From Marinoscillum pacificum (GTDB lineage: Bacteria; Bacteroidota; Bacteroidia; Cytophagales; Cyclobacteriaceae), in NCBI RefSeq assembly GCF_024714495.1, contig NZ_JAMZMJ010000002.1, forward strand, positions 248,001 to 312,000: DNA of 64,000 nt. The letters run 5' to 3'. The position numbers and the translations under genes were made by a program. Shown here piece after piece: positions 18,295 through 47,239 of the stretch; the stretch's first letter is position 1; every line of letters begins with the position of its first letter. The notes under the pieces were generated by a model. That model made no database searches. It was not told where the DNA came from and saw nothing but the letters and a program-made list of their open reading frames with translations.

Positions 18295-18366
18295 TAGTCC
18301 GTAGGGGAATCGAACCCCTGTTACCAGGATGAAAACCTGGCGTCCTAACCCCTAGACGAACGGACC
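18295..18366 (-). tRNA. tRNA-Glu (TTC), copy A
   Basis: Full cloverleaf on the minus strand: acceptor GGTCCGT/ACGGACT (first pair G-U), anticodon stem CCAGG/CCTGG with loop TTTTCAT giving anticodon TTC, T arm GGGGTTCGATTCCCC, discriminator A, no encoded CCA. 72 nt, the same as copy B. A terminator follows within 5 bp. Confidence 0.95.
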
Positions 18367-18561: not shown

Positions 18562-18633
18562 TAGTCCGTAGGGGAATCGAACCCCTGTTACCAGGATGAA
18601 AACCTGGCGTCCTAACCCCTAGACGAACGGACC
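18562..18633 (-). tRNA. tRNA-Glu (TTC), copy B
   Basis: Same 72-nt tRNA as copy A with anticodon TTC, all four arms intact and no encoded CCA. First tRNA of the leftward cluster; about 100 bp separate it from the M16 peptidase terminator. Confidence 0.95.
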
Positions 18634-36084: not shown

Positions 36085-36841
36085 CGTCATTCCTGCGGAG
36101 GCAGGAATCACATCTATCAAATCCTCTACCTCAAACATTCTCCACAAGCATTATTAAGCCCAACCGTCATCACGAGCGCAGCGAAGTGATCTTACAATAA
36201 AGCTTAGCCAACTCATTCCTTAAGATTGCTTCAGTTCCTTCGCAATGACGACCTGATCCATCGTCATTCCTGCGGAGCCTGCCAGCCGTGGCAGGGCTGG
36301 AATCCCATCAAGCCACATTCCCCACAAGCATTATTGAGCCCAACCGTCATCACAAGCATAGCAAAGTGATCTTACAAACAAGCTTGACCAACTCAATAGG
36401 TAAGATTGCTTCAGCTCCTTCGCAATGACGACCTAATCCATCGCCATTCCTGCGAAATCTGCCGTGGCAGGGCAAGAACCCCATGAAGCAGACCTACACG
36501 TCAAAATGAGATTCCCCTATAATTCCATTCTAATCACCCAAAGGAATCTTATTCTTGAAGGAATTCAGTGAATGACGGTAAGAGACAAAACATCATTCCT
36601 GCGAAGCCTGCCTGCCGAGGTAGGGCAGGAATCCCATCAAGCTCCATGCCCAAGAAGCATAATTGAACCCAACCGTCATCACGAGCTCAGCGAAGTGATC
36701 TTACAAACAAGCATAACCAACTCAATAGGTAAGATTGCTTCAGTTCCTTCGTAATGACGACTCAAATTAAAGCATACCTAAAATACATTAGCCGAATTCG
36801 TCATTCCTGCGGAGCCTGCCTGCCGAGGTAGGGCAGGAATC
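36085..36841. repeat. Array of two interleaved hairpin repeat families
   Basis: Long element (about 91 bp: CAACCGTCATCACGAGC to TTCGCAATGACGA) at 36161-36251, 36341-36431 and 36670-36760; its ends are imperfect inverted repeats. Short element (GTCATTCCTGCGG to GCAGGAATC) at 36085-36108, 36262-36303, 36442-36482, 36593-36633 and 36799-36841; each folds on itself around GCAGG/CCTGC. A third motif, GAGATTCCCCTATAAT, follows at about 36510 and 36868. The whole 1.3-kb gap between sucC and the ilv leader holds these repeats and no gene. Confidence 0.85.
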
Positions 36842-37089
36842 ACATGAAGCAGAACTAATCGTCAAAGTGAGATTCCCCTATAATCACATAAGAATTAACT
36901 CTTAAGCATTGCGACAAGTACACGTGATTCGAGGAATGACGTTTAGAATTTTAGTCAGCAACCCTTAGCCATCGTAATTAAAAAATGCAGCAAACGATTT
37001 AAAAACGGCTATTTATTGCAATTACTGAACTTCAAAACTCTTACACATCGTAATAATTACCATTATTGTTAAAATTTAACAGACGTTAG

Positions 37090-37121
37090 TTGTTCTTTTG
37101 AAGGGTTATCTATTAGCTTTG
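37090..37121 (+). promoter_or_regulatory. Candidate promoter of the ilv leader/operon
   Basis: TTG at 37090-37092 and a perfect TAnnTTTG -7 element (TAGCTTTG) at 37114-37121, spacer 21 nt. If this is the promoter, transcription begins only a few nucleotides before the leader ATG at 37130, so the leader would be almost leaderless. Confidence 0.5.
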
Positions 37122-37129
37122 AATCACAG

Positions 37130-37216
37130 ATGAAAAGAATCCTTGCAAATATTGTCATTACACCAATTATTATTCTAGTCATTATTATGACAGGAGAAGG
37201 GAATGGCTGTATTTAG
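37130..37216 (+). CDS. ilv operon leader peptide, 28 residues
   Basis: ATG at 37130, TAG at 37214. The peptide opens MKRILANIVITP and continues IIILVIIMT; 13 of 28 residues are Ile (9), Val (2) or Leu (2), with two Thr, the products and precursor of the operon it precedes. It is followed within 25 bp by a terminator just upstream of ilvE. Codons 24-26 (GGG AAT GGC) contain the strand of the antiterminator, so ribosome position decides which hairpin forms. It acts in cis by stalling when charged Ile/Val/Leu tRNA is scarce. Confidence 0.85.
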   Translation: MKRILANIVITPIIILVIIMTGEGNGCI

Positions 37217-37272
37217 CTTAAAATAGAAAAGAAACTATAAGCGCCATTCCAAACAGAATGGCGCTTTTTTTT
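37200..37272 (+). promoter_or_regulatory. Transcription attenuator of the ilv operon
   Basis: Two exclusive pairings. Terminator: 37239-37249 with 37256-37266 (11 bp, arms AAGCGCCATTC / GAATGGCGCTT). Antiterminator: GGAATGGC at 37200-37207 (inside the leader codons) with GCCATTCC at 37243-37250, a perfect 8-bp match that destroys the terminator's left arm. A ribosome stalled at the Ile codons ending at 37186 leaves 37200 onward free; one that reaches the TAG at 37214 covers it. Confidence 0.85.
37239..37272 (+). terminator. Attenuator terminator in front of ilvE
   Basis: 11-bp perfect stem, loop CAAACA-like, eight Ts; ends 16 bp before the ilvE ATG. Confidence 0.9.
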
Positions 37273-37288
37273 AACCCAAATTAAAATT

Positions 37289-38179
37289 ATGTATTACGAC
37301 GATCGCACAGAGGTTTTCTTGGATGGAGAGTGGGTCAAGGCTAAAGACGCAAAAGTCAGCTTATTTGCCCAAACACTTCATTATGGAACCGGGGTCTTTG
37401 ATGGCCTTCGCTCCTATAACAACGGCAATGGTTTTAATATTTTCAAACCACACGTTCACTTTCAGCGCTTGAAAGATTCTGCGGAAAAGGTTTTCCTGAA
37501 TGTACCCTACTCAGTTGAAGACCTGACCAAGATTGCTTACGAACTGATCGATAGAAATAACTTAACCAATGCCTATATCAGGCCATTGGTATTTGCTGGA
37601 CCCAACATGATTTTGGCTCCTTCTAAAGAATCACACTTTTTCATGACGGCCTGGAAATGGGCGAAGTATCCTGGTTTCGAACCCCTCAATACCATGATTT
37701 CTTCATACCTAAAGCCAAGCCCTAAGTCTACACCAGTAGAAGCTAAAATCATCGGAAACTACTCTGCAAACACATTAGCATCCGCTGAAGCTAAGAAATT
37801 AGGTTTTGATGAAGCAATCCTTTTGGATCACGACGGACATATATCTGAAGGTCCAGGAAGCAACATCTTCTATGAAAAAGACGGTGAGTTATTTACCCCA
37901 AAACTCGGCAACATCCTTCCAGGAATCACTCGTAGCACCATCATGGAAATCTGCGATGAACTTGGAGTGAAAGTAACTGAAAAAGACATTACCCCAGAAG
38001 AGTTTTACAAAGCCGATCATGCGTTTTTCTGTGGAACAGCTACAGAAATCACACACATCAGCTCAGTAAACGGAGAAAAATTTAAGAAGAAATGGGACGA
38101 CTCCATAGGACATAACCTACTGGAAGTCTACCAGCAAAAAGTAATGTTTGACGAGTACCGCGGACTCACTATAGTATAA
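37289..38179 (+). CDS. ilvE: Branched-chain amino acid aminotransferase
   Basis: PLP-dependent class IV aminotransferase of 296 residues, the final step of Ile, Val and Leu synthesis. PLP lysine is Lys153 in [11 protein letters not shown]; the N-terminal [13 protein letters not shown] and the cofactor-binding EGPGSNIF and [10 protein letters not shown] segments are those of BCAT. The first structural gene of the operon, 16 bp after the attenuator terminator and 1 bp before ilvD. Confidence 0.96.
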
Positions 38180-38180
38180 G

Positions 38181-39857
38181 ATGGCGAACGAACTGAATAA
38201 GTACAGTAAAACAATCACTCAGGATGAAAGTCAGGCTGGATCATTGGCCCAGCTATATGCACTAGGACTTACTGAGGATGACCTTAAAAAAGCACAAGTA
38301 GGAATTGTTAGCACAGGATTCGAAGGAAACCCGTGCAACATGCACCTTAATATATTATCACATCAGGTTAAAAAAAGTGTCAAAGAATCTGATCTGGTAG
38401 GATTGATCTATCACACCATCGGGGTAAGTGACGGAATGTCCAACGGAACTACAGGAATGAAATACTCTCTAATCTCAAGAGATATCATTGCTGACTCTAT
38501 AGAAACAGTAGCTCAGGCGCAGTTTTACGACTCAATCGTAGCAGTAGTAGGTTGTGATAAAAACATGCCGGGTTCTATCATTGGAATGGCTCGCCTCAAC
38601 AGACCGTCTATCATGGTTTACGGAGGAACAGTTAAGCCAGGAAAATGGAAAGGTGAAGACCTCAACATCGTCTCTGCTTTTGAAGCATATGGTGCAAAGC
38701 TTGGTGGCAACATCTCTGATGAAGACTACAAAGGCATCATCAAGAACTCGATCCCTGGACCAGGTGCTTGTGGCGGTATGTACACAGCCAACACCATGGC
38801 TTCTGCAATCGAAGCGATGGGTATGAGCTTACCTTTCAGTTCGTCAAACCCTGCAGAGGGTGATCCGAAACAACAAGAAATTCAGACAGTGGGTGCTGCT
38901 ATCAGAAATCTGATGGAGAAAAACATCCTTCCTAGTGACATCATGACCAAGAAATCGTTTGAAAATGCGATTTCAACAGTAATGATCTTAGGAGGATCTA
39001 CCAATGCAGTACTACACTTAATCGCAATGGCGAAAGCTGCTGATGTGGACATCACCTTGGATGATTTCCAACGAATCAGTGACAAGACACCATTCTTAGC
39101 TGACCTGAAGCCTTCAGGCAAATACCTCATGGAAGACCTTCACAAAATCGGTGGAGTACCTGGAGTGTTGAAGCTGATGCTAAATCATGGTTACCTTCAC
39201 GGTGACTGTATGACCGTAACAGGTAAAACCATCGCTGAAAATCTGGAAGCTGTCCCTGACTTAACAGATGACAAAGGAATGATTTATTCCTTCGACACAC
39301 CTATCAAGAAAACAGGCCACTTACAGGTTCTATATGGGAACCTTGCTCCAGAAGGTGCAGTAGCTAAAATCACTGGTAAAGAAGGTGAGGTCTTCGAAGG
39401 TCCTGCAAGAATTTATGAAGATGAATTCTCAGCAATAGAAGGAATCGGAAAAGAAGTTCAAAAAGGTGAAGTAATTGTGATTCGCCAATCTGGTCCGAAA
39501 GGAGCTCCAGGGATGCCAGAAATGCTGAAACCAACCGGAGCTGTGATGGGTGCTGGACTTGGTAAAGATGTGGCACTAATCACGGATGGTCGTTTCTCTG
39601 GTGGTTCTCACGGATTCGTAGTAGGTCACATTACTCCAGAAGCACAGGAAGGCGGACCACTTGGATTAATCAAAAATGGAGACATCATCAGAATAGATGC
39701 GACTGAAAACAAGCTGGAAGTTCTGATCTCCGATGAAGAAATGGAAGCTCGTCGCAAAGCATGGGTACAACCAGCTTACAAAGCGACAAAAGGCATATTA
39801 AAGAAGTACATCAACTCCGTAAAATCAGCCTCAGAAGGCTGCGTAACAGATGAATAA
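38181..39857 (+). CDS. ilvD: Dihydroxy-acid dehydratase
   Basis: Fe-S dehydratase of 558 residues for the third common step of Ile/Val synthesis. Cluster ligand Cys residues are visible in [19 protein letters not shown] and [14 protein letters not shown], with the C-terminal [16 protein letters not shown] active-site segment. Length is standard. Starts 1 bp after ilvE; its end overlaps ilvB by 8 bp. Confidence 0.97.
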
Positions 39858-41598
39858 GAATATGAATACATCCACGCTAGAGGTAGCAAAGAAGCCAAAA
39901 GAAGCCACGATCAAGGTATCGGGAGCTGAGGCGGTATTACTATGCTTAATCGAAGAAGGTGTAGACGTCATATTCGGGTATCCTGGCGGCGCAATCATGC
40001 CGATCTATGATGCACTATATGGCTACACTGACAAGTTAGAGCATATCCTTACAAGACATGAGCAGGGTGCTGCACATGCTGCTCAGGGATATGCACGAGT
40101 CACTGGCCGTACAGGTGTCTGTTTTGCAACATCTGGCCCAGGAGCCACAAACTTAATTACAGGACTAGCTGATGCTCAGATAGACTCCACTCCTATGGTG
40201 GCAGTAACTGGCCAGGTAGCTTCTCACCTTTTGGGAACTGATGCTTTTCAGGAAACGGACGTGGTTGGCATCTCCATGCCGGTAACCAAATGGAATTATC
40301 AGGTAACCCGTGCTGAGGAAATCCCTGAGGCAATGGCTAGAGCATTCTACATTGCAAAGTCTGGAAGACCTGGACCTGTATTGATAGACATCACTAAAGA
40401 TGCTCAATTACAGCAATTTGAGTACACCTATGAGAAATGTACCAAAATCAGAAGCTACCACCCATACCCGGAATTGGAAGAAGACAAAGTAACAGCAGCT
40501 GCTAAGCTGATCAACGAGTCGAAAAAGCCATTCATTCTGGTAGGTCATGGAGTATTGCTTTCTGGAGCACAAAAAGAATTGATTGACTTTGCCGAAAAAG
40601 CAGGAATACCAATGGCGTCTACGCTTATGGGACTTTCAGCTGTGCCAGTTAGTCACCCACTATATGTTGGTTATTTGGGAATGCATGGGAACTATGCACC
40701 AAACGTCAAAACCAACGAATGTGATGTATTGATTGCGATCGGTATGCGCTTCGATGACCGGGTAACTGGTGACTTGAAACGCTATGCGAAGCAGGCAAAA
40801 GTGATTCACATTGAGATTGATCCAGCTGAGATCGATAAGAATGTGAAAACGGAAGTTGCCATCAACGCGGATGCGAAACAAGCATTGCGTTCATTGATCA
40901 AACAAACTTCTGAAAACAGTCACAAAGACTGGGTTCAGGAATTTAGAGCACTGGATAAGGTAGAAGACGAAAAAGTCATTCAACCAGAGAAATACCCAAC
41001 CGAAGGTGAGATCAGAATGGCTGAGGTAATCCGCAGGATTTCTGACAAAACAGAAGGTAAAGCGATTCTGGTTACAGACGTTGGGCAGCATCAGATGATC
41101 GCATCTAGATACTATGCCTTTGAAGATACCGATGCGAATGTAACTTCAGGTGGTCTGGGCACCATGGGATTCTCCCTTCCTGCAGCTATGGGAGCTAAAA
41201 TGGGAAGACCCGATAAGACAGTCGTTTCTGTAATTGGTGATGGAGGTTTCCAAATGACCATTCAGGAATTGGGCACCATCTTCCAGAGCAATATCGCTGT
41301 GAAGATTTTGGTGCTGAACAACAACTTCTTAGGAATGGTAAGACAGTGGCAGCAACTTTTCCATGATCGTCGCTACAGTTTCACTGAATTGACCAATCCA
41401 AACTTCCAGAAAATAGCTGAAGGATACGGCATTGCAACTAATAAAGTATCTGAAAGAGCTGATCTGGATGCGGCGATCGAGAGCTGGTTAAGCAGCGATG
41501 GTCCTGCTCTATTGGAAGTACTGGTAGAAAAAGAAGAAAACGTGTTCCCTATGGTACCAACCGGGGAGTCTGTATCTAATATCCGATTGGAACCTTAA
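39850..41598 (+). CDS. ilvB: Acetolactate synthase large subunit
   Basis: ThDP enzyme of 582 residues, first common step of branched-chain synthesis. The catalytic Glu is in [15 protein letters not shown], the ThDP/Mg motif in [14 protein letters not shown] to [12 protein letters not shown]. An N-terminal extension of about 20 residues precedes the core [12 protein letters not shown]; ATGs at 39850 and 39862 are both possible. Overlap with ilvD suggests coupled translation. Confidence 0.97.
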
Positions 41599-41611: not shown

Positions 41612-42205
41612 ATGACGAAATCATTATATAGCGAAGACACTTCCGATCAGGTAGAAAAGGAATTTACCCTATCGGTATTGACTGAAGATAAAGCAGGTTT
41701 GCTCAATCACATCACGATCATCTTCACCAGAAGAAAGATCAACATTACCAGCTTAAATGTCTCTACTACGGAGGTAGCTGGTGTCTCTCGATTCACTATT
41801 GTACTTACGAGTACCAGAGAAAGAATCGAAAAGGTGGTAAAGCAAATCAGAAAGCTAATCGATGTACTTGGCGCGTTTGTCTATGACGAAACTGACATCT
41901 ACTATCAGGAAATTGCTTTGTACAAAGTGCCTACTCAGGTCTTTCTAAATGGCAGTAAAATCGAAGATTTGGTCCGTAACAATGGAGCTAGAATACTAGT
42001 GATAGAAAAGGATCATATCATCATCGAGAAGACTGGTCACAAGGAAGAAACTCATGATCTATACAAAAAACTGGAGCCACATGGCTTGTTGGAATTTGTG
42101 AGATCTGGCCGAGTGGCAATATCTAAATCAAAACGTAAGACAGAAGCATTCATCAAGCAATTGGAAGACGCTGAGTCTAATTTATTAAGCATAAAAGAAT
42201 TCTAA
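41612..42205 (+). CDS. ilvN: Acetolactate synthase small (regulatory) subunit
   Basis: 197 residues: an N-terminal ACT domain (about 17-90, FTLSVLTEDKAGLLNHIT) that binds valine for feedback inhibition, and a C-terminal ALS_ss_C-like domain with a more divergent sequence. It pairs with the IlvB subunit encoded 13 bp upstream. Length is longer than the enterobacterial IlvN and close to IlvH. Confidence 0.93.
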   Translation: MTKSLYSEDTSDQVEKEFTLSVLTEDKAGLLNHITIIFTRRKINITSLNVSTTEVAGVSRFTIVLTSTRERIEKVVKQIRKLIDVLGAFVYDETDIYYQEIALYKVPTQVFLNGSKIEDLVRNNGARILVIEKDHIIIEKTGHKEETHDLYKKLEPHGLLEFVRSGRVAISKSKRKTEAFIKQLEDAESNLLSIKEF

Positions 42206-42232: not shown

Positions 42233-43279
42233 ATGGCAAAAATCAATTTTGGAGGCGTAGAAGAGGAAGTAGTAACAAGAGAAGAGTTTCCTTTATCAAA
42301 AGCACAGGAAGTCCTAAATGGCGAGACTGTAGCCGTTCTTGGATATGGTGTACAAGGCCCAGGTCAGGCACTAAACCTAAAAGACAATGGCATCAACGTA
42401 ATCGTTGGACAAAGAAAAGGATCTAAAACTTGGGACAAAGCCGTAGCTGACGGATGGGTGCCGGGCGAGACTCTTTTCGAATTAGAAGAAGCTTGCGAAA
42501 AAGGTACAGTTCTTCAGTTCCTTCTATCAGACGCTGGTCAGATTGCTCTTTGGCCAACAGTAAAAAAACACTTAACTCCTGGAAAAGCACTTTACTTCTC
42601 TCACGGATTCGGTGTTACTTACAAAGAGAAAACTGGTATCGTACCACCAGAAGATGTGGACGTAATCCTTGTTGCTCCTAAAGGTTCTGGAACATCTCTA
42701 AGAAGATTGTTCGTAGAAGGTAAAGGATTGAACTCAAGTTTCGCTATCCACCAGGATGCTACAGGTAATGCTCGTCAAAAAGCAATCGCACTAGGTATCG
42801 GAGTTGGATCAGGTTACTTGTTCGAAACAGACTTCTACAAAGAAGTATCTTCTGACCTTACAGGTGAGCGTGGTACTTTGATGGGTGCTATCCAGGGTCT
42901 ATTCAGAGCTCAGTATGAAGTATTGAGAGAAAATGGTCACTCTCCATCAGAAGCATTCAACGAAACTGTGGAAGAGGCTACTCAGTCTTTGTATCCATTG
43001 ATCGCTGAAAATGGTATGGACTGGATGTATGCAAACTGTTCTACTACTGCACAAAGAGGTGCATTGGATTGGATGGGACCATTCTACGAAGCTACTAAGC
43101 CAGTATTTGCGCAACTATACAAGTCAGTAATCGACGGTGTGGAAGCTCAAAAGTCTATTGACTCTAACTCACAACCTGACTACAGAGAGAAACTTGAAGC
43201 TGAATTGAAAGAGCTTGAAGAGTCTGAAATGTGGCAAGCAGGTAAAGCTGTTAGAAAGCTTAGACCAGAAAACAACTAA
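42233..43279 (+). CDS. ilvC: Ketol-acid reductoisomerase
   Basis: NADPH-dependent enzyme of 348 residues, second common step of Ile/Val synthesis. Rossmann motif GYGVQGPGQALNL, with the phosphate-binding QRKGSKTWDKA loop; the C-terminal knotted domain has the Mg ligands around DLTGERGTLMGAIQG and EATQSLYPLIAENGMDWMYANCS. The sequence type is the one seen in Bacteroidota and fungi rather than the short cyanobacterial form. Followed by a 186-bp gap with hairpins before ilvA. Confidence 0.97.
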   Translation: MAKINFGGVEEEVVTREEFPLSKAQEVLNGETVAVLGYGVQGPGQALNLKDNGINVIVGQRKGSKTWDKAVADGWVPGETLFELEEACEKGTVLQFLLSDAGQIALWPTVKKHLTPGKALYFSHGFGVTYKEKTGIVPPEDVDVILVAPKGSGTSLRRLFVEGKGLNSSFAIHQDATGNARQKAIALGIGVGSGYLFETDFYKEVSSDLTGERGTLMGAIQGLFRAQYEVLRENGHSPSEAFNETVEEATQSLYPLIAENGMDWMYANCSTTAQRGALDWMGPFYEATKPVFAQLYKSVIDGVEAQKSIDSNSQPDYREKLEAELKELEESEMWQAGKAVRKLRPENN

Positions 43280-43465: not shown

Positions 43466-44728
43466 ATGGCAGTTCAAACCACATTTCGTCCAGAGATAGA
43501 AGACGTCAAGAAAGCTCATAACAATCTGAGCAAGGTAATCTATCAGACACCACTTCAGTACAGTTTCAACTTGAGTGAACGATATGGCGCGTCCATTCAC
43601 CTAAAGCGTGAAGACACCCAAATCGTGCGTTCATACAAAATTCGTGGTGCTTACAACAAGATTACCAGTCTTACCGAGGAAGAACTTTCAAAAGGTGTGG
43701 TATGTGCTAGTGCAGGAAATCACGCACAAGGCGTAGCATTTTCTTGCTTCAAATTAGGAGTAAAAGGTGTGATCTTCATGCCAGCACCTACTCCCAAACA
43801 AAAGGTGCAGCAAGTAAAGATGTTTGGCAAAGACCAGGTAGAAGTAGTTCTGAAAGGCGACACCTTTGATGACGCCTATCAAGCGGCTATGGAATACCGT
43901 GATGCCAACAACAGTACGTTTGTTCATCCATTTGACGACCCTAAAGTCATAGAAGGACAAGCAACTGTAGGATTGGAGTTATTTAAGGATGCTGAATTCT
44001 CAATAGATTATCTATTCCTACCTGTTGGTGGTGGCGGATTATCTGCAGGAGTTTCCAGCGTAATGAAACTCCTAAGTCCAAAAACAAAAATCATCGGTGT
44101 AGAGCCAGCAGGAGCTCCAGCGATGTATGAGTCATTCCAACAAAACAAGGTGGTGACTCTTGAAAAAATTGACAAGTTTGTTGATGGTGCTGCCGTCAAA
44201 AAAGTGGGTGATACGACTTTCCCTCTTTGCAAAGAAAACCTTGACGAGGTAGCGCTAGTAGACGAAGGCAAGCTGTGCTCGTCACTCATCAGCATGTACA
44301 ATGAAAGCGGAATTGTTCTGGAGCCAGCTGGAGCACTATCCGTTGCCGTTTTGGATCAATACAAAGACCAAATCAAAGGCAAAAACGTAGTATGTATACT
44401 TTCTGGCAGCAACAACGACATTACCCGAACTGAAGAAATTAGAGAACGTTCTCTATTGTATGAAGAACTCATGCATTACTTCATTATCCGATTCCCTCAG
44501 CGTGCCGGTGCCCTTAAAGAGTTCGTAGCTGAAGTACTGGGACCAGATGATGATATCGTACACTTTGAGTACACCAAGAAAACGTCTCGTGAACAAGGTC
44601 CTGCACTAATTGGGATTGAGCTCAAGTCTAAGGAAGACTTCCAGCCTCTACTCACGAGAATGAAAGAAAGAAACTTTTTAGGTGAGTATCTCAATGAAAA
44701 ACCCGACCTTTTCGGTTACATCATTTAA
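43466..44728 (+). CDS. ilvA: Threonine dehydratase (biosynthetic)
   Basis: PLP enzyme of 420 residues that makes 2-oxobutyrate from threonine, committing it to isoleucine. PLP lysine Lys58 in REDTQIVRSYKIRGAYNK, the glycine loop VGGGGLSAG, and one C-terminal ACT-like regulatory domain (about 330-420, YFIIRFPQRAGALKEF). It is the short, single-regulatory-domain form. It sits between ilvC and thrA, linking the threonine and isoleucine pathways. Confidence 0.96.
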   Translation: MAVQTTFRPEIEDVKKAHNNLSKVIYQTPLQYSFNLSERYGASIHLKREDTQIVRSYKIRGAYNKITSLTEEELSKGVVCASAGNHAQGVAFSCFKLGVKGVIFMPAPTPKQKVQQVKMFGKDQVEVVLKGDTFDDAYQAAMEYRDANNSTFVHPFDDPKVIEGQATVGLELFKDAEFSIDYLFLPVGGGGLSAGVSSVMKLLSPKTKIIGVEPAGAPAMYESFQQNKVVTLEKIDKFVDGAAVKKVGDTTFPLCKENLDEVALVDEGKLCSSLISMYNESGIVLEPAGALSVAVLDQYKDQIKGKNVVCILSGSNNDITRTEEIRERSLLYEELMHYFIIRFPQRAGALKEFVAEVLGPDDDIVHFEYTKKTSREQGPALIGIELKSKEDFQPLLTRMKERNFLGEYLNEKPDLFGYII

Positions 44729-44806: not shown

Positions 44807-47239
44807 ATGAAAGTATTAAAATTTGGAGGAACGTCTGTTGGTAGTGAAGAAGCTATCAGACAAGTCGCGAAAATTGTTCAGTCTCAAGTCGATCAGGTAG
44901 TATTAGTTACATCCGCCGTAGGTGGAGTAACGGACCAATTAGTAAAAATTGGTGAAGTAGCTGCCTCTGGTGACAAGGTGTACATTTCGCACTTCGAAGT
45001 AGTAAAAGTGCAACACGAGCAACTTTACTATAACTTGATTGAAAACAAGCCTGACGACAAGTTTTATAAGATTATTGAGGAGTTTGAAGACATCTGTAAA
45101 GGTGTATTCTTACTTCGTGAATTAACTACGCGTAGCTCCGATTACATTTTGAGTATCGGTGAGCGTCTTTCTTCATTGATCATTTCCGAATTTTTCCGAA
45201 CAGAAGGAATTGATATTACCCTTTTCGATAGCCGTCAATACATCAAAACAGATGATCACTTTGGTCATGCCAATGTGAACTTCAAATTGACGACACAAAA
45301 AATTAAAGAAGCTGAGGCTTCTTTCACTAGAGTAAGCCTTTTCCCTGGTTTTATCTCTTCTACAGAAGACAACCAAACCACTACTCTTGGTAGAGGAGGA
45401 TCTGACTATACAGCAGCTATCCTTGCAGGTGTATTAGTGGCTGACCATTTTGAAGTTTGGACAGATGTAGATGGTTTGATGACTGCTGACCCAAGAATGG
45501 TGAAGCGTGCTAACTTCATCGAACACGTTTCCTATGAAGAGGCTTTGGAGCTATCGCACTTTGGAGCGAAAGTAATCTACCCTCCTAGTATTCAGCCTGC
45601 ATTGGAAAAAGGTATTCCAATGACTATCAAAAACACCTTCAAACCTGATCAGAAAGGAACTTTGATCACGAAGGAATGGGATGACAACAAGCAATTGATA
45701 CGTGGTATATCCAGCATCAAAGACATTGCATTGGTAACATTGAGTGGTAGCGGAATGGTAGGTATCCCGAAGTTCTCATATCGTTTCTTCAGAGCTTTGT
45801 CAACTGCTAAAGTAAATGTGATCTTGATCACTCAAGCATCTTCTGAGCACTCGATTACTGTCGGTATCGATGCGAAGGATGCTAATCCAGCATTAAAAGC
45901 GCTAAAAGAAGAGTTTACTGAGCAAATAGCAAGTAACCACATAGATCCAATTCTGGTAGAGAAGAATTTGTCCATCATCGCATTGGTGGGTAACAACATG
46001 CGTGATCAAGTGGGTGTTAGTGGCCAGATGTTTAACGTACTGGGTAAAAATGGTGTAAGCATCAAAGCCATCGCACAAGGATCTTCAGAAAGAAACATCT
46101 CTGCGGTAATCTCTAAAGATGATTTGAGTAAAGCGCTAAACGTGCTTCATGAAAGCTTCTTCCTTTACGCTACTAAACGCATTAACCTATTCATCATCGG
46201 AACAGGTAATGTTGGTAAAGCATTTATCAATCAATTGGTGCAGCAGTTCACTTACCTGAAGAAAAACCACCAGTTGAATATTAAGATCATCGGAATGGCC
46301 AATTCCAAAAAGATGATTTTCGAGAAGGATGGCACGCCACTTTCTAAATGGGAATCAACTTTAGCGAATGGAGCCAAATTCGATAAGAAGGATTTCTTAC
46401 GTCACATGTACGAGATGAACCTTCGCAACAGTATTTTCATAGATATCACTGCATCTGATGAAATCGCTGCATTGTATCCAGAAATACTGAAGAAGAGTAT
46501 TTCGGTAGTAACACCAAACAAGATTGCTGCTACAGGACCTCAGGTAGATTACCTGAACCTGAAATCTATGAGCAAGAAATTTGGTAGCCGATTCTTATTT
46601 GAAACCAACGTATGCGCTGGATTACCGGTACTTTCTACCTTGAACGATCTGGTAAGAAGTGGTGATCAGGTTCATCAAATTGAAGCGGTATTATCAGGAA
46701 CACTGGTATTCCTCTTCAATGAATACAATGGCACTACCAAGTTTGTAGACGTGATCAAAAAAGCGAAAGAGCTTGGATTTACTGAGCCAGACCCACGTCT
46801 GGATCTATTCGGATCTGATGTGAAGCGTAAGATCTTGATTCTGATCAGAGAGAGTGGCTACACCTGTGAGTATGATGATATTGAGTTGAACTCATTCTTG
46901 CCACAAAGCTGTATGGAAAGCACAACCATCGAAGATTTCTATGAGAAAGTAGAAGCTGAAGAAGCTCATTTCAAGAAATTGTACGATGATGCTCAGGCTA
47001 AAGGCTCCAGACTAAAAGTTGTTGCAAAATATAAAAACGGACATGGTTCTGTAGGACTGGAAGCAGTTGATGCAACGCATCCGTTCTATAACCTGGAAGG
47101 TAAAGACAACATCGTGTTGTTCTACACGAACAGATACAACGATCATCCAATGGTGATCAAAGGTGCTGGTGCTGGTGCAGAAGTAACTGCATCGGGAATA
47201 TTTGCTGATGTTTTAAGACTTTCTCAATCAGATATCTAA
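44807..47239 (+). CDS. thrA: Bifunctional aspartokinase / homoserine dehydrogenase
   Basis: 810 residues. Aspartokinase domain at about 1-285 (KFGGTSVGSEEAI, LGRGGSDYTAAI, EVWTDVDGLMTADPR), ACT domains at about 310-445, homoserine dehydrogenase from about 460 (FIIGTGNVGKAF cofactor motif, VTPNKIA, LSGTLVFLFNEY). It carries out the first and third steps from aspartate to threonine; threonine probably inhibits through the ACT part. Its TAA is directly followed by the thrB ATG. Confidence 0.97.
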   Translation: MKVLKFGGTSVGSEEAIRQVAKIVQSQVDQVVLVTSAVGGVTDQLVKIGEVAASGDKVYISHFEVVKVQHEQLYYNLIENKPDDKFYKIIEEFEDICKGVFLLRELTTRSSDYILSIGERLSSLIISEFFRTEGIDITLFDSRQYIKTDDHFGHANVNFKLTTQKIKEAEASFTRVSLFPGFISSTEDNQTTTLGRGGSDYTAAILAGVLVADHFEVWTDVDGLMTADPRMVKRANFIEHVSYEEALELSHFGAKVIYPPSIQPALEKGIPMTIKNTFKPDQKGTLITKEWDDNKQLIRGISSIKDIALVTLSGSGMVGIPKFSYRFFRALSTAKVNVILITQASSEHSITVGIDAKDANPALKALKEEFTEQIASNHIDPILVEKNLSIIALVGNNMRDQVGVSGQMFNVLGKNGVSIKAIAQGSSERNISAVISKDDLSKALNVLHESFFLYATKRINLFIIGTGNVGKAFINQLVQQFTYLKKNHQLNIKIIGMANSKKMIFEKDGTPLSKWESTLANGAKFDKKDFLRHMYEMNLRNSIFIDITASDEIAALYPEILKKSISVVTPNKIAATGPQVDYLNLKSMSKKFGSRFLFETNVCAGLPVLSTLNDLVRSGDQVHQIEAVLSGTLVFLFNEYNGTTKFVDVIKKAKELGFTEPDPRLDLFGSDVKRKILILIRESGYTCEYDDIELNSFLPQSCMESTTIEDFYEKVEAEEAHFKKLYDDAQAKGSRLKVVAKYKNGHGSVGLEAVDATHPFYNLEGKDNIVLFYTNRYNDHPMVIKGAGAGAEVTASGIFADVLRLSQSDI

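Follow-up and report, generated by a model that had tools for sequence, protein, structure and literature searches.

The window, meaning the whole 64,000-nt stretch of Marinoscillum pacificum DNA that was analysed, carries on its forward strand a series of ilv genes that begins with ilvE. A short frame rich in Ile, Val and Leu codons and a terminator lie directly upstream of ilvE, behind a predicted promoter. In order of position, the features are as follows.

37090..37121, + strand: predicted Bacteroidota sigma-A promoter, with TTG at 37090-37092, a 21-nt spacer and TAGCTTTG at 37114-37121
37130..37216, + strand: leader open reading frame of 28 codons, from the ATG at 37130 to a TAG ending at 37216; peptide MKRILANIVITPIIILVIIMTGEGNGCI
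37147..37159, + strand: weak candidate for region 1, AAATATTGTCATT, which according to folds could pair with 37202-37214 and so mask region 2
37166..37186, + strand: sensor codons ATT ATT ATT CTA GTC ATT ATT (Ile Ile Ile Leu Val Ile Ile), from the codon list
37200..37207, + strand: region 2, the antiterminator 5' strand, GGAATGGC, inside the last leader codons
37239..37249, + strand: region 3, the terminator left arm; the antiterminator 3' strand is 37243-37250
37256..37272, + strand: region 4 and T run, with the right arm at 37256-37266 and the T run at 37265-37272
37289..38179, + strand: ilvE, branched-chain aminotransferase (TIGR01122, 271.5 bits, cut-off 245.55), first gene of the putatively controlled operon
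38181-39857, + strand: ilvD, NCBIfam match over the curated cut-off
39850-41598, + strand: ilvB, NCBIfam match over the curated cut-off
41612-42205, + strand: ilvN, NCBIfam match over the curated cut-off
42233-43279, + strand: ilvC, NCBIfam match over the curated cut-off
43466..44728, + strand: ilvA, threonine ammonia-lyase (TIGR02079, over the cut-off), after a 186-bp gap behind ilvC

The window ilvE has 93% and 88% identity to two Marinoscillum records. ilvA is possibly on the same transcript as ilvEDBNC, and a gene for a bifunctional aspartokinase/homoserine dehydrogenase, again over the NCBIfam cut-off, lies 3' of ilvA. Inside this aspartokinase gene, on the minus strand (46434-46464), the Rfam model IRE_II scored 30.3 bits against a gathering score of 30 (E value, 0.089), which is probably a chance match. 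Two genes for tRNA-Glu(UUC) with equal scores are located ∼200 bp apart on the minus strand (18295-18366 and 18562-18633), and a GC-rich stretch with the inverted repeat cctgcctgccgaggtagggcagg, which resembles an intergenic repeat element, is found in the gap before the leader (36795-36845).

The first-pass annotation of this DNA had described a 28-codon leader frame with 13 Ile, Val and Leu codons, an 11-bp terminator (37239-37272) 16 bp before ilvE, a perfect 8-bp complement between 37200-37207 and 37243-37250, and a run of Ile codons ending at 37186. Each of these elements was confirmed in the sequence. The leader codes for 9 Ile, 2 Val and 2 Leu residues among its 28 codons; the exact complement of GGAATGGC is GCCATTCC; the terminator stem (37239-37249 with 37256-37266) was also found independently by a consensus scan; 16 bp separate the end of the T run from the ilvE ATG; and the last Ile codon of the sensor run ends at 37186. 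The leader frame matched no NCBIfam family at an E value of ≤1e-10. The window has a single unit of leader and terminator at this locus, with no second unit in tandem.

A transcript ending at 37252 is predicted to form the antiterminator, with 37200-37207 paired with 37243-37250, and the predicted fold of the whole window leader contains the terminator. The 149-nt leader was more stable than any of 200 shuffled sequences (z = -4.2), but when the terminator was removed, z rose to -0.75 and 44 of 200 shuffles were as stable, so the low score of the complete leader is mostly due to the terminator.

In order to estimate how often such parts occur by chance, both strands of the window were scanned with the detector used for the relatives (a terminator preceded at 10 to 50 nt by the end of an Ile/Val/Leu-rich frame). 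Among 23 terminator-like sites, 4 had a leader-like frame, and the ilvE leader was the longest of these and the only one with an ATG start. A site on the minus strand (∼36085-36112) with a 10-codon TTG frame had a pairing energy of -14.8 kcal/mol, compared to -15.7 kcal/mol at the ilvE leader. Because a pairing of near-equal energy occurs once elsewhere in the window, the parts alone in a single genome are not decisive, and this recurrence is in keeping with the possibility that the parts are present without a function, either by chance or as decaying remains. That the attenuator is more than a chance arrangement follows from its conservation in relatives.

A search for ilvE in 148 genomes of the family gave matches at an E value of ≤1e-60 in 61 genomes (own genome included), at 62 places. 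With one further Marinoscillum record (L005), these provided 63 upstream regions of 500 to 600 nt; the paralogues of the genome itself (L002-L004) were left out, and L006 and L007 were not treated as independent of L009 and L010, whose contigs are equal to theirs in length. The detector, which called a terminator with a frame of 8 to 60 codons, at least 35% of them for Ile, Val or Leu, ending 10 to 50 nt before it, found 64 units in 54 of the 63 loci. Two further loci had a unit with relaxed settings (L066 and L068) and three by eye (L030, L031, and L044), which brings the total to 59 of 63, although the loci are related and the counts do not represent independent events. No attenuator was found in the 500 to 600 nt upstream of ilvE at L033, L062, and L063, where ilvE apparently follows a leuB-like frame (recognised by eye).

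The first-pass annotation had named absence of the leader and of its pairings from relatives as the outcome that would speak against it. The comparison gave no such outcome: the leader, the terminator and the pairing of region 2 with region 3 (2:3) recur at ilvE throughout the family. An attenuator before ilvE is thus the usual arrangement in this family of Bacteroidota, in which the design has been little described. Of three loci from a single genus, two (L030 and L031) retain an intact leader frame, but in the third (L032), where the terminator is kept, the frame is, by eye, apparently shifted. L032 is possibly an attenuator in decay.

The 2:3 pairing was evaluated with the segment around the leader stop codon and the terminator left arm plus loop, with 100 dinucleotide shuffles for each unit. 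The mean duplex energy was -16.2 kcal/mol, compared to -9.5 kcal/mol for shuffled region 2 segments and -11.3 kcal/mol for segments swapped between loci. The pairing was better than that of the shuffles at a P value of ≤0.05 in 56 of 64 units, the other eight being L017, L038, L039, L047, L050, L053, and the second units of L045 and L067. Against swapped partners, only 30 of 64 units were in the best tenth, since one core is common to many loci.

Compensatory changes were sought in 24 units of the GGNNTGG/GCGCC class, which were picked by eye, registered on the GG(C/T) motif and aligned by hand in blocks. A MAFFT alignment of whole leaders was dropped because region 2 was out of register in several rows. 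In the 2:3 helix, 93.7% of the cells were paired, and 5 pairs and 12 cells had changed on both sides. The paired share, the number of cells and the covariation score were reached by none of 500 shuffles, and the number of pairs was reached by 7 of 500; sliding the strands by 1 to 3 columns gave no more than 3 pairs and 9 cells. In the terminator helix (3:4), the paired share was 96.1%, two-sided changes affected 6 pairs and 11 cells, and no shuffle in 500 reached any of these measures. Both competing helices therefore show compensatory changes in this class. Outside it, the paired sequences are wholly different, with GGGGTGA opposite TCACCCC in L041 and L043, and GGCAAGATG opposite CATCTTGC in L019. 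Although the frame of L032 appears, by eye, to be disrupted relative to its congeners, the helices show compensatory changes and the spacing is conserved in many genera, which makes parts without a function an extremely improbable explanation.

The position of region 2 relative to the leader is conserved. The distance from its midpoint to the stop codon is -3.6 ± 7.9 nt, and the value falls between -18 and +15 in 62 of 64 units. Ile, Val and Leu account for 406 of 512 codons located 12 to 35 nt upstream of region 2 but only 28 of 231 located 0 to 11 nt upstream, and beyond 48 nt their share is mostly 0.2 to 0.4; the detector required frames rich in these residues, so that the richness itself is partly selected, whereas no such selection acted on where they lie with respect to region 2. 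A ribosome covers ∼12 to 15 nt ahead of its A site, and the packed zone thus starts at the distance from which stalling would keep region 2 uncovered.

The leader might instead be the gene of a small hydrophobic membrane protein and have a terminator of its own, in which case ilvE would have a separate promoter and the complementarity would be incidental. In favour of this are the hydrophobic character of the peptide and the predicted near-leaderless expression, an arrangement suited to a small gene. However, the length (15 to 50 codons across the 64 units) and the sequence of the frame vary while the pairings and the spacing from codons to region 2 are kept, the choice among synonymous codons in the sensor run is biased, the unit precedes ilvE at nearly all loci of the sample (59 of 63, 5 of them relaxed or by eye), and the T run is just 16 bp from ilvE. 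Thus, the odds of a membrane protein gene appear very slim.

Among the sensor codons, GTC and ATT are preferred. GTC accounted for 114 of 229 Val codons in the leaders before region 2, compared to 84 of 662 in the ilvE genes behind them, and the GTC share was higher in the leader at 51 loci and lower at none (ties and loci with few Val codons left out). Ten window genes, for comparison, had GTC at 32 of 329 Val codons. Ile was encoded by ATT in 238 of 342 leader codons versus 271 of 804 in ilvE, and Leu by CTA in 38 of 186 versus 82 of 1149, the latter counted overall rather than by position. The preferences for GTC and ATT are localised: GTC made up 108 of 192 Val codons at a distance of 12 to 47 nt upstream of region 2 and 3 of 27 beyond it, and ATT made up 196 of 253 and 34 of 76 Ile codons, respectively, with the reservations that some distal codons may precede the true start, since frames were sometimes called from a far-upstream GTG or TTG, and that the Fisher P values for codon position ignore the kinship of the loci.

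Base composition was rejected as the cause of the bias, because GTC raises the G+C content and ATT lowers it. Pairing of GTC with AATGGC in a helix between region 1 and region 2 (1:2) was likewise rejected as the sole cause; GTC was frequent with ATGG in region 2 (44 of 77 Val codons) and also without it (70 of 152), and pairing with that motif is therefore not the whole reason. Ala and Thr codons are biased too (GCA, 27 of 50 versus 273 of 973; ACA, 45 of 111 versus 180 of 707), so part of the leader codon bias may be general. Among the 36 tRNA matches in the genome itself, tRNA-Val(UAC) and tRNA-Val(GAC) occur once each; tRNA-Ile(GAU) is missing from these matches, probably because of a gap in the draft. 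Synonymous codon bias is a feature that this family has in common with leaders of Escherichia coli, where it has been explained by selective charging of isoacceptors (PMC1183508). One hypothesis is that the GTC bias may, by analogy, have the same origin, and it offers a way to test the theory of selective charging outside E. coli.

These results suggest that the ilvE leader is a ribosome-mediated transcription attenuator, with branched-chain aminoacyl-tRNA as its signal and ilvEDBNC as its target, a reading to which we assign a probability of about 0.92 from sequence comparison. Transcription would start ∼4 nt before the leader ATG, and a ribosome translating the leader would trail RNA polymerase along it. 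If Ile-, Val- or Leu-tRNA were short, the ribosome would stall on the run at 37166-37186 with its leading edge short of region 2, and the free region 2 could pair with region 3 as the polymerase makes it; the terminator would then be blocked and ilvE transcribed. If the tRNAs were charged, the ribosome would reach the stop codon and cover region 2, and the 3:4 terminator would end transcription. Stalling on the Ile run, as the first-pass annotation had proposed, gains support from the conservation of 2:3, from the compensatory changes in both helices and from the placement of the sensor codons. Regulation of the ilv operon by amino acid shortage is the most likely outcome of such a device.

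The classical enterobacterial model also includes a 1:2 protector (pause) helix. Such a helix was not found family-wide when leaders were compared with codon-shuffled versions (9 of 64 units at a P value of ≤0.05; median P value, 0.44), and a rerun listed 10 units at ≤0.06. Strong 1:2 helices were seen in a few loci (L023, L029, L054, and L014), and the candidate in the window was not significant (z = -0.75). Thus, of the first-pass description of a complete textbook attenuator, the leader, terminator and antiterminator hold, but the classical 1:2 helix is, by this test, not a family-wide part. Since no family-wide protector was found, transcription might read through when no ribosome translates the leader.

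Without a conserved 1:2 helix the sensor model is not textbook-complete, which leaves some room for a terminator that answers a signal other than branched-chain tRNAs, such as a riboswitch, a T-box, a protein-bound attenuator or general translation. A precedent is the Salmonella mgtCBR leader, in which one of two short open reading frames responds to ATP (PMC3641672). However, no Rfam family reached its gathering score in the window leader (nearest leader families, Thr_leader with 22.7 of 55 bits and Phe_leader with 20.8 of 55), and residues that match the pathway are packed at stall distance. It therefore seems highly unlikely that another signal is read here.

The predicted promoter box TAGCTTTG ends 8 nt before the leader ATG, and it is found at the same place in the nearest relatives. 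With the box placed at positions -12 to -5, as reported for Flavobacterium psychrophilum (PMC9723704), transcription in the window is predicted to start at ∼37126, giving a 5' untranslated region (UTR) of 4 nt. Across the family, 21 of 53 first units had a perfect TAnnTTTG box 45 to 150 nt upstream of region 2, compared to 4.0 expected from shuffles. Of the 23 first units in which the box used for UTR prediction was perfect, 13 had a predicted 5' UTR of 4 to 7 nt, although exact lengths lean on a rule for choosing among in-frame ATG codons that favoured a UTR near 10 nt. In PMC9723704, 5.5% of mRNAs were leaderless and the median 5' UTR was 24 nt, so a start with ∼4 nt would be uncommon, though not without precedent. 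Ribosomes of Bacteroidia do not recognise Shine-Dalgarno sequences (PMC9976891).

Attenuators of ilvGMEDA and other amino acid operons of enterobacteria combine a leader frame rich in the amino acids of the pathway with competing antiterminator and terminator helices, and the ilvE leader resembles them in both respects. It differs from the ilvGMEDA type in that region 2 overlaps the end of the frame and its stop codon, in that no conserved 1:2 helix was found, and in its predicted ∼4-nt 5' UTR, its Bacteroidota promoter and the lack of an Rfam leader family at gathering score. The regulation of amino acid synthesis has been little studied in the phylum Bacteroidota, and here a classic device stands before ilvE; alignments of the comparative set directly display the placement of the sensor, the codons chosen and the helices.

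Leader-peptide attenuation is not a first for the Bacteroidota, and the kind is already known, given the strong clues from transcriptome maps of F. psychrophilum, likewise upstream of amino acid biosynthesis operons (PMC9723704). The passages of that study consulted here name no ilv example, and the present set is comparative and comes from another order-level group of the same phylum. In 2010, the authors of a survey of premature terminators (PMC2965389) knew of no such leaders shown outside Proteobacteria and Actinobacteria, added Firmicutes, and argued that such leaders can arise repeatedly. The leader-peptide systems of that survey belong to the same mechanism class as the ilvE leader, and the words Bacteroid, Flavobact and Cytophaga are absent from its main text.

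At 10 of the 54 ilvE loci with detected units, two units stand in series (L022, L024, L027, L028, L034, L035, L042, L045, L065, and L067), and by eye two units also seem present at L040, L043, and L064. The antiterminator sequences differ between the units of a locus, and both leaders are rich in Ile, Val and Leu. A perfect promoter box preceded the first unit in 7 of the ten loci and was found between the units in none, which makes a single transcript through both likely from the sequence. Mean 2:3 energies were -15.0 kcal/mol for cognate and -9.2 kcal/mol for crossed pairings; in L022, L024, and L034, a crossed pairing equalled or beat one of the cognate ones. Tandem attenuators also govern the Salmonella mgtCBR operon, where two serial short frames each control attenuation but respond to different signals, ATP and proline (PMC3641672), whereas both leaders of the tandem relatives are Ile/Val/Leu-rich and the window has a single unit.

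The joint proposition, that in part of the family a single promoter serves two consecutive attenuators for the same amino acid group, with mostly uncrossed pairings, and that the sensor is specific for isoacceptors (GTC with tRNA-Val(GAC), and ATT near region 2 only), is tentative, with a chance that we place a little below even. If it holds, two independent tests in series would multiply the probabilities of readthrough and sharpen the response, and, together with the ∼4-nt UTR, attenuation would here take a form particular to this lineage, in bacteria whose ribosomes do without Shine-Dalgarno pairing. The tandem loci are a natural test of whether serial attenuators sharpen the response.

Other biosynthetic genes were scanned for comparable leaders. 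For hisG, with matches in 59 genomes, 8 of 30 loci examined had a His-rich leader with a terminator (L132, L134, L141, L145, L147, L155, L159, and, weakly, L143), and none was found at the hisG locus of the genome itself (L138). Within 500 nt upstream of leuA, 30 loci yielded just one poor candidate (L183); both scans took position 1500 as the start of the gene, an assumption that possibly fails for truncated loci. A search for ilvD in 119 genomes of the class gave 28 matches at an E value of ≤1e-100, from which 26 upstream regions were taken, 24 of them outside the family. By eye, a leader with a terminator was present in both regions from family members and in 8 of the 24 others (L069, L070, L072, L073, L077, L082, L085, and L093). 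In these ten leaders, GTC was used for 13 of 32 Val codons and ATT for 37 of 48 Ile codons.
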